Positions 44,567 to 55,612 of a DNA stretch of 64,000 bases are shown here, piece by piece. Location: the NCBI GenBank assembly GCA_026929865.2, contig CM049418.1:2722001-2786000 (forward strand), read 5' to 3'. Below the pieces are notes generated by a model. That model searched no databases and was not told where the DNA came from. It saw only the letters and a program-made list of their open reading frames with translations. Positions within the stretch are counted from its first letter, which is position 1; the number at the start of each line of letters is the position of its first letter. Made by a program: the position numbers and the translations under genes. The stretch is from Hyperoplus lanceolatus (lineage: Eukaryota > Chordata > Actinopteri > Uranoscopiformes > Ammodytidae).

Positions 44567-44896
44567 TTAAAGGTGCAGTGTGTAATATGACATCATCAAG
44601 AAAGTTCTACAAAGTTCTAGAATGCAACGCTCCCTGGGTAACCCCAACCCTTTCGAATAATAACAGAAGCTACAGTGGCCTTCAAGGACAAGAACAATTC
44701 TATATTTTAAACAATGCACCTTATGACATTCCAACTATGACACTTTCAAGATGGCGGCACTAGGCCTTGGTCCAAAATATGCAGAAATATGGACATATAT
44801 GAGACCCTTTCTAAGGGAAAAAATAATAATTCAAAAAATCTTTTTCAGCTATTATGCGCTAAATTAAATGTACTTGTGGATATTATAATTACTTTC
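44567..44896. repeat. MITE family C, left part, split by insertion
   Basis: AAAGGTGCAGTGTGTAATAT...GATATTATAATTACTTTC; continues at 46502-46554 (CTACAAAATCTGCTAGG...TACACACTGCATGTTTAAA). Confidence 0.8.
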
Positions 44897-46493
44897 GGTA
44901 ACACTTTACAATAAGGTACACAAAATTGTAGTAGCTACTACATACCTACTACATAGTTTTTTTTTTTTTGCGCTACCTATGTGTTAGGTAGCACAAAAAA
45001 AAAAACCCTATGTGTTAGGTAGCACATAGGGTTTTTTTTTTGTGCTACCTAACACATAGGTAGCACAAAAAAAAAAACCCCTATGTGCTACCTAACACAT
45101 AGGGTTTTTTTTTTGTGCTACCTAACACATAGGTAGCACAAAAAAAAACCCTATGTGTTACCTACTACATAGTTTTTTTTTTTTTGCGCTACCTATGTGT
45201 TAGGTAGCACAAAAAAAAAACCCTATGTGTTACCTACTACATAGTTTGTTTTTTTTTGCGCTACCTATGTGTTAGTTAGCACAAAAAAAAAAAAACCCTA
45301 TGTGTTACCTACTACATAGTTTTTTTTTTTGCGCTACCTATGTGTTAGTTAGCACAAAAAAAAAAAACCCTATGTGTTACCTACTATATAGTTTTTTTTT
45401 TTTTGCGCTACCTATGTGTTAGGTAGCACAAAAAAAAAAACCCTATGTGTTACCTACTACATAGTTTTTTTTTTTTGCGCTACCTATGTGTTAGGTAGCA
45501 CAAAAAAAAAAACCCTATGTGTTACCTACTACATAGTTTTTTTTTTTGCGCTACCTATGTGTTAGTTAGCACAAAAAAAAAAACCCTATGTGTTACCTAC
45601 TACATAGTTTTTTTTTTTTTGCGCTACCTATGTGTTAGGTAGCACAAAAAAAAAAAACCTATGTGTTACCTACTACATAGTTTTTTTTTTTTGCGCTACC
45701 TATGTGTTAGTTAGCACAAAAAAAAAAACCCTATGTGTTACCTACTACATAGTTTTTTTTTTTTTTTGCTACCTATGTGTTAGGTAGCACAAAAAAAAAC
45801 CTATGTGTTACCTACTACATATTTTTTTTTTTGCGCTACCTATGTGTTAGTTAGCACAAAAAAAAAACCCTATGTGTTACCTACTACATAGTTTTTTTTT
45901 TTGCGCTACCTATGTGTTAGGTAGCACAAAAAAAAACCTATGTGTTACCTACTATATAGTTTTTTTTTTTTTGCGCTACCTATGTGTTAGGTAGCACAAA
46001 AAAAAAACTATATAGTAGGTAACACATAGGGTTTTTTTTTTGTGCTACCTAACACATAGGTAGCGCAAAAAAAAAACTATGTAGTAGGTAACACATAGGG
46101 GTTTTTTTTTTGTGCTACCTAACACATAGGTAGCGCAAAAAAAAAAACTATGTAGTAGGTAACACATAGGGTTTTTTTTTTGTGCTACCTAACACATAGG
46201 TAGCACAAAAAAAAACCCTATGTGCTACCTAACACATAGGGTTTTTTTTTTTGTGCTACCTAACACATAGGTAGCGCAAAAAAAAAAAAACTATGTAGTA
46301 GGTAACACATAGGGTTTTTTTTTTGTGCTACCTAACACATAGGTAGCGCAAAAAAAAAAACTATGTAGTAGGTAACACATAGGGTTTTTTTTTTTTGTGC
46401 TACCTAACACATAGGTAGCGCAAAAAAAAAAAACTATGTAGTAGGTATGTAGTAGCTACTACAATTTTGTGTACCTTATTGTAAAGTGTTACC
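44897..46493. mobile_element. Non-autonomous hAT-like palindromic element with hairpin satellite
   Basis: Begins GGTAACACTTTACAATAAGG; its first 60 bases are exactly the reverse complement of its last 60. Both sides carry the 8-bp direct repeat TTACTTTC (44889-44896 and 46494-46501), the target-duplication length of hAT transposons. The 1597-bp interior has no coding capacity: about 12 tandem units of roughly 70 bp (poly-T, GCGCTACCTATGTGTTAGGT AGCAC, poly-A, CCCTATGTGTTACCTACTAC ATAG), then about five units in the opposite orientation from about 45995. Each unit can itself fold into a hairpin. Class is inferred from target length; the terminal bases are not a textbook hAT end. Confidence 0.85.
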
Positions 46494-46569
46494 TTACTTT
46501 CTACAAAATCTGCTAGGAAATAAAACCCTACATTCTACACACTGCATGTTTAAAATACGATAATTCTTA

Positions 46570-53477: not shown

Positions 53478-53524
53478 GGATATGGGATTTTAAAAGCTCA
53501 AAATGGGCGTAACACTGGTTCAGA

Positions 53525-53818
53525 ATTTGCATAACCCCACCCCTAAATATGCATAGCCCTAAATTAGCATAACCCTACCCCTACATTTGCATAACCCTAA
53601 TTTTTCATAACCCTATCCCTAAATATGCATAACCCTAAATTAGCATAACCATACCCCTACATTTGCTTAACCCTAATTTTTCATAACCCTATCCCTAAAT
53701 ATGCATAACCCTAAATTAGCATAACCATACATTTGCATAACCCTAATTTTTCATAACCCTACCCCTAAATATGGGTAACCCTAACCCTAGTTCCAAATGG
53801 GTATAACCCTAAAAAAAA
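53525..53818. repeat. Telomere-like CCCTAA minisatellite
   Basis: About 20 CATAACCCTA / TAACCCTAAAT units in a higher-order pattern: GCATAACCCTAAATTAGCAT, ATTTGCATAACCCTAATTTT and TCATAACCCTATCCCTAAAT recur in order. Not a pure telomeric array. Confidence 0.8.
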
Positions 53819-54665: not shown

Positions 54666-55497
54666 CTTGGCGTGGACATCAGGGTGGAAGTGGGCAACAT
54701 TTTACTGCGCAGAGGGATCCCACTTCTAGACACTGGAGCCCTTTATGGCGGGACGGACGTAGGTGGTGGCCATGAGGTGTTCTGCAGCTGGCCTGGGGAC
54801 TGTTTTGGGGTGAACAAGACAAGAAAGTAGAATTAGTGAACTGACACTTCTGCCTGCAGACATTTTTATTTTTTTTTTTAACCACTGGTCAATTTTGTGA
54901 TTTTTTTCAGAAAAAAAAATGCATTACGTACAAAAATATTGTCTCAATGCAAGTAATCAACTGGCAAAGCGAAACTATATCTATGAGTTAAAAACCTATT
55001 CACCTGCAAATTGAGGGAAGGAGGGAAGCACTGGATTGGTTGGAATGGGAACGATGGAAACACTGGGAGCCCCGACAAGGTTAGGCATGCTCCTCCGCAG
55101 CATATCTGAAAGAGATACAAAAAGTAAATATTTCAAGCAGATTATACGCAAAACAGTAGGATTTAAAAAAAAAGTACAGTGGGGGCTGTTTTATAAAGCC
55201 AGTTTTCCTTTTTAAATGGGCAATGAAAGGACTGTAGTCTATTCTGCAAAATTCCAATTCAACACAATTCTACATTGAAACTTTAAAGCATAGTGCATAG
55301 CAAGTAAAACCAGAATCCTTAACATGCGAAGAACCACATTAGATTCTTTTTCTCTCACCTGATTCTGGTCTGGAGCACTGTTAGTTGGACCCTGATGTAG
55401 GGCTTGTGACTGGGCTTGATAGGCGAACCCAGGGGAAGGGTAGTGTGGGGTGGAAGGAGGGTGGTGGATGTGCCCAGGAATAGGGAACTGCTGCTAC

Positions 55498-55612
55498 TGT
55501 CTGTAGGTAGGTACCACAAAATAAAATACTTCTGTGGTAGTAGCACAAAAAAAAAATCCTATGTAGTAGGTACCCCAATTTTGTGTACATTGTTGTAAAG
55601 TCTTACCAATTC
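55498..55612. repeat. Fragment related to the 44.9-kb palindromic element
   Basis: TAGGTAGGTACCACAAAATA, GTAGTAGCACAAAAAAAAAA, TCCTATGTAGTAGGTACC and CAATTTTGTGTACATTGTTG TAAAGTCTTACC resemble the unit and right terminus of that element. Confidence 0.7.

Follow-up and report, generated by a model that had tools for sequence, protein, structure and literature searches.

The DNA stretch analysed here, 64,000 nucleotides of the Hyperoplus lanceolatus genome (assembly GCA_026929865.2, 807 Mb in 527 contigs; contig C24:2722001-2786000, from here on the window), contains at 44897-46493 a palindromic element of 1597 bp, which represents a recent insertion from a multi-copy non-autonomous transposon family. 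Copies of this family have common ends, 8-bp duplications and mirror-image arms built of 72-bp double-hairpin units, the number of units varying from copy to copy. The explanation we favour, with a probability of roughly 0.7, is that of a non-autonomous foldback family, derived from a miniature inverted-repeat transposable element (MITE), which is moved in trans by a Merlin-type transposase and whose arms have grown via tandem duplication from a small palindrome.

The outer arms of the element are reverse complements of each other and identical over 72 bp, the left terminal inverted repeat (TIR) being located at 44897-44968 on the plus strand and the right one at 46422-46493 on the minus strand. 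The left TIR begins GGTAACACTTTACAATAAGG, that is with GGTAAC and the terminal dinucleotide GG, and the full terminus of the family is GGTAACACTTTACAATAAGGTACAC, a terminus of the GGTAACACTTTA kind. Both TIRs are flanked by an exact 8-bp target-site duplication, TTACTTTC, at 44889-44896 and 46494-46501. An earlier sequence-only reading of the stretch had claimed 60 exactly complementary terminal bases and an 8-bp direct repeat at both ends; both features are real, the complementarity extending to 72 bp. A scan of the window detected 14-bp inverted ends with 2 mismatches or fewer, combined with an exact 8-bp direct repeat, 24 times; the first 12 of these matches are the element itself and pairs within its own interior, and the same scan of ten block-shuffled windows gave 0, 0, 0, 1, 0, 0, 0, 0, 0 and 0 matches.

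Copies of the family and their target duplications

A genome-wide search with the terminus, as had been proposed from the sequence, bears out a dispersed family. The first 32 bases of the TIR have 626 exact matches in the genome (318 + 308) and the reversed-pattern control has none. Among the ends listed, which are the first 100 of the 626 (contigs C1-C4), 58 form 29 convergent exact-ended pairs of 246-4660 bp, the longest pair holding a nested insertion. Flanks were compared for 30 two-ended copies, namely the window copy, 18 further whole copies and 11 represented by their flanks only; since copies were picked by exact or best-scoring ends, young copies are over-represented. The 8-bp duplication is exact in 22 of the 30 and has one mismatch in another 6, some of these being A-rich and ambiguous, and pairing flanks across different copies as a control gave 1/870 exact matches and 8/870 at one mismatch or fewer. 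The smallest copy (L087, 246 bp), outside the 30, carries GATGCACT at both sides.

It is true that homopolymer-rich arrays are difficult to assemble and that unit counts may be off, but an assembly artefact is rejected as extremely improbable, as many loci on C1-C4 and C24 show this design, with duplications that differ from locus to locus, and the contigs are 29-44 Mb long.

At one locus (L028, positions 301-443, in C2:8603509-8607509) the left end of the family occurs twice in one orientation, 111 bp apart, as if a copy had been inserted into a copy or a rearrangement had taken place. Outside the genome, 0 matches to the patterns for terminus and unit were obtained in IMG/VR and in GTDB contigs and blastn gave no family match among plasmids; these are viral, prokaryote and plasmid collections and thus uninformative on the spread of the family among animals.

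Hairpin modules and foldback symmetry

The interior consists of 41 modules, of which 21 are of A-type (GCGCTACCTATGTGTTAGGTAGCAC), 17 of B-type (CCCTATGTGTTACCTACTACATAG) and three of C-type (CCCTATGTGTTAGGTAGCACATAGGG), the last apparently being an A/B hybrid. Three of the A-type modules have a fully symmetric stem, a form named Z. The joints between modules are 21 A-runs (length 9-13) and 21 T-runs (length 9-15), and Tandem Repeats Finder describes the whole as a 72-bp unit repeated 21 times. The sequence-only reading, which had seen a single kind of hairpin unit separated by poly-A and poly-T, was right about hairpins and runs but not about the single type, two alternating hairpins and their hybrid being present instead. 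Example modules folded as RNA with their flanking runs reach about -21 to -25 kcal/mol for A, Z or C and about -8 to -12 kcal/mol for B. The whole element reaches -1063 (plus strand) and -1084 (minus strand), and shuffled versions, five per strand, lie between -375 and -408, values that give its capacity to fold and are no proof that folding occurs. A subterminal motif, TACCTACTACATAG (TIR bases 47-60), is found again in the standard B module. The sequence-only reading had proposed that the element may be a source of hairpin RNA; Rfam showed 0 matches over the window at gathering thresholds.

In the window copy the left arm (44970-45997) is made of alternating A and B modules, mostly in plus orientation but with a flipped module block at 45006-45139, and the right arm (46008-46421) of B, A and C modules in minus orientation. 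Where they meet is the apex region (45937-46031), in which a TATAT variant of B (plus) is followed by A (plus) and another TATAT-variant B (minus). A gapless mirror scan of the element for one apex was uninformative (best 56%). In 20 whole copies the orientation of modules was scored with a set of fixed motifs, drifted modules being left out, which gave 3 to 51 scored modules per copy. Five of the copies, which belong to another subfamily or are very small (L009, L024, L026, L088 and L087), were set aside, leaving 15 of the main type, and 13 of these show a single switch that separates plus modules on the left from minus modules on the right, the mean fit for all 15 being 0.99. The two orientations of the units are hence foldback symmetry and not a random two-way satellite, and a randomly oriented satellite is rejected. 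The earlier claim of a MITE turned into a two-orientation satellite stands as regards a non-autonomous copy with a hairpin array and falls as regards the orientation, which is that of a foldback.

The TATAT variant of B is present in 9 of the 15 main-type copies and in 8 of those 9 it coincides with the switch or is next to it, suggesting that the apex goes back to a common ancestor. There is no correlation between the numbers of modules in the two arms (Spearman -0.17, p 0.56), which favours growth within each arm over copying across the palindrome. The 246-bp copy L087 is a bare palindrome with the layout TIR-A-C-A'-TIR and C near its centre, and it is probably from a small palindromic element like this one that the longer copies grew, through tandem duplication within each arm. 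A second subfamily has units of 27-28 bp with spacers mainly of T in the left arm and of A in the right arm, a pattern clear in L025, L064 and L088 and more mixed in L009, L024 and L026.

The array itself could also be the primary thing, a free satellite captured by, or escaping from, a transposon. The 72-bp unit is repeated 21 times in the window copy and a unit 30-mer has 2794 exact matches in the genome (1457 + 1337, control 0), as such a satellite would have it, but among the unit matches listed, the first 100 of the 2794 (84 on C1 and 16 on C2), no free array was seen and all 100 are within 912 bp of a family terminus. A satellite origin is therefore very unlikely, and among these matches the seeding of satellite DNA that had been suggested for the element does not show.

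In the favoured explanation the family would go back to a short palindrome resembling the 246-bp copy (TIR-A-C-A'-TIR); the arms would then grow and shrink via tandem duplication, homopolymer runs and hairpins being the sites of slippage or template switching. Tandem duplication within an arm would preserve the inward direction of the units and the one switch at the apex, and modules such as those of the block 45006-45139 would be turned over by rare template switches across a hairpin. The element would need no host function; the interior may be tolerated cargo, and it may also multiply the subterminal motif. A bolder version, which we hold only tentatively and consider doubtful, takes the arms of such a Merlin-type foldback as a self-rewriting code of hairpin modules. 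Palindromes flanked by homopolymers would duplicate, hybridise (as in C) and flip singly through hairpin-guided template switching, so that the order of events would be recorded in each of the ~300 or more copies (626 exact ends), and the repeated subterminal motif may raise transposition efficiency, in which case array growth would be selected.

Assignment of the ends to a transposase superfamily

The element had been called hAT-like from its 8-bp duplication, that is a MITE moved in trans by a hAT transposase with the duplication as the hAT signature. Duplications of 8 bp are indeed present in most of the copies compared, but 8 bp is also the length made by Merlin and so is not specific to hAT. 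CAG ends are a general mark of hAT elements, the target consensus of Ac is nTnnnnAn, and fish repeats often have termini close to GGTAACACTTTACAATAAGG. Short TIRs and CAG-type ends would be expected of a hAT family, and the present one has exact TIRs of 72 bp starting with GGTAAC. One description gives hAT TIRs of 5-27 bp, a CAG-type end for Mar and the target consensus nnnTAnnn for Buster (PMC3517528). When the 22 exact duplications were compared with these targets, 1/22 fitted Buster and 4/22 fitted Ac. Merlin is described as having a conserved terminal GG, duplications of 8-9 bp and TIRs of 24-462 bp (PMC8101967), and the family has all three.

hAT domains are abundant in the genome (at least 150 matches, 150 of 722 candidates having been scored). 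In 3.2-kb stretches around 12 hAT loci, which may not reach the element ends, no end like that of the family was found at 4 mismatches or fewer and one was found at 5. A CAG...CTG-ended element with the 8-bp duplication TACATAGG was observed at positions 213-4362 of L064 (C1:23105300-23110110), nested in a family copy that has its own duplication, TATTCAAC; judged from its ends, the nested element would represent a contrasting, hAT-type terminus and as such also speaks against a hAT origin of the family. With GG ends, 72-bp TIRs, few duplications fitting the hAT targets and a near-identical terminus at Merlin-transposase loci, the hAT label is not supported and a hAT MITE considered improbable.

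The Merlin domain PF12762 has 11 matches in the genome. In L052 (1703-5379) the domain (E 6e-16) is situated between inverted arms of 491 bp that are 97.6% identical, and the locus also matches the NCBIfam IS1595 model at E 3e-15, although this match falls short of the model's curated cut-off. A homologous locus, C21:26789300-26800400, contains a Merlin domain and arms of about 575 bp with 95.8% identity. When the four termini of these two elements were compared with the first 20 bases of the family 17, 16, 17 and 17 bases agreed. The L052 terminus has 1349 genome matches at 2 mismatches or fewer (control 0) and is also found on an abundant MITE family of 475 bp (L089, C1:1497111-1497585; L090, C1:39764315-39764790), which shares its outer ~124 bp with L052, at 98% identity to one arm and 94% to the other. 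In ten copies with this terminus, nine of 475-493 bp and one of 1233 bp, the 8-bp duplication is exact in five, has one mismatch in three and is absent in two. Because loci with a Merlin domain share 16-17 of the 20 terminal bases and MITEs with the same terminus have 8-bp duplications, Merlin is the likelier superfamily; the ends of the family are of Merlin type and, on this comparison of termini, membership is likely but not proven. A Merlin-superfamily (IS1595-type) transposase would then act in trans on GGTAACACTTTA termini and the element would move by cut and paste, leaving 8-bp duplications behind.

Several observations weigh against the favoured explanation. Among the ends listed 42 of 100 lack an exact partner inside 5 kb, two of these constituting one same-strand near pair, and in two of the 30 copies with compared flanks (L019 and L021) no duplication can be recognised. 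The window copy is itself, because of the flipped block, one of the two exceptions to the single switch, L017 being the other; outside the flipped stretch around 45042-45139 its scored modules are plus on the left side and minus on the right. The similarity between the family and the Merlin elements ends after about 20 bases, and the full family TIR was found at none of the Merlin loci; no direct parent was found. Neither L052 nor the C21 locus, in both of which the two ends are seen, has a target duplication (AAAAAAAA/TTGCCTTG and CCAAAATG/AGAGGATT), and when the surroundings of the 11 Merlin and 12 hAT loci were scanned, no convincing outer ends with duplications appeared. One-sided similar ends appear in the 9-kb Merlin stretches L056, L057 and L058 (4, 2 and 3 mismatches), and as termini of the GGTAACACTTTA kind are common in the genome some of the proximity to Merlin loci could be due to chance. 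Of the other stretches of this length L059 and L062 have one end each at 5 mismatches and L054, L055, L060 and L061 have none; such single ends may be those of neighbouring MITEs.

The missing parent would also agree with mobilisation by another superfamily making 8-bp duplications, such as P, or by an unclassified transposase, an alternative that seems rather unlikely to us given the 16-17 of 20 terminal bases that elements with a Merlin domain have in common with the family.

Surroundings of the element and comparison with known systems

The window contains exons of ORC4-, PWWP- and kinesin-type, the PWWP gene presumably being MBD5; the element has the PWWP exon on one side and the kinesin exons on the other. 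Pfam was run on 105 of the 141 window open reading frames of at least 70 amino acids, low-complexity frames being left out and the 36 dropped being mainly repeat-rich or overlapping or near the MBD5-like exons, and gave 8 families, none of them a transposase family. An older, one-ended relic of the family is found at 55497-55607 on the minus strand, its terminal 48 bp being 87.5% identical (blastn E 1e-12); it scores about equally against both subfamilies, and a search for its second end and a duplication found none. Directly downstream of it an open frame at 55242-55493, with the splice-like borders TAG|CAGCAG and CAG|GTGAGA and no Pfam match, could be a minus-strand exon, and as the relic adjoins this putative exon on its upstream side it may supply the acceptor region. 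At 53524-53784 there is a minisatellite with a 38/76-bp period, CCCTAAATATGCATAA-like and by eye unrelated to the element.

Internal tandem repeats, in some cases seeding satellites, are already known from MITEs and foldbacks such as Tetris, Xstir and miDNA4. The present family resembles Merlin transposons and MITEs in its terminal GG, 8-bp duplications and long TIRs, and one Merlin family has internal tandem repeats of varying number, a 163-bp unit in 4 versus 3 copies (PMC8101967); compared with Merlin transposons the present family lacks coding sequence and has arms of hairpin units. Tetris of Drosophila virilis is likewise a non-autonomous foldback with 8-9-bp duplications, its ends are common with a MITE and its repeat partly resembles the outer TIR (PMC4079207). 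The long inverted arms with tandem repeats, variable in number between copies, place the present family with such foldbacks. Tetris repeats are however about 220 bp and also occur as free satellite arrays (PMC4079207), whereas the present units are double hairpins of 72 bp and the unit matches listed include no free array. In Xstir and miDNA4 of Xenopus the interior of a MITE also becomes a tandem array, with microhomology or stem-loop models proposed for its growth; miDNA4 differs in being a Tc1/mariner element, and mirror-image arms of hairpin modules are not part of the descriptions compared (PMC12628747, PMC9659126). The zebrafish MITE Angel, compared by description and not by sequence, is a fish inverted-repeat element that can base-pair within one strand, and the description compared mentions no hairpin array (PMC12628747). 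The literature search showed neither a Merlin foldback nor any fish MITE with hairpin arrays, most subscription papers and repeat databases such as Dfam and Repbase lying outside it, and searching the literature by element sequence gave 0 papers, although sequences printed with breaks would escape it.

With this analysis the family moves from hAT to, probably, Merlin. One genome holds a natural series of one element at many array lengths, each copy dated by its own duplication, and this series lends itself to testing by what route a MITE interior comes to be a tandem array, and whether the growth of foldback arms takes place in each arm separately or involves copying from one side of the palindrome to the other.
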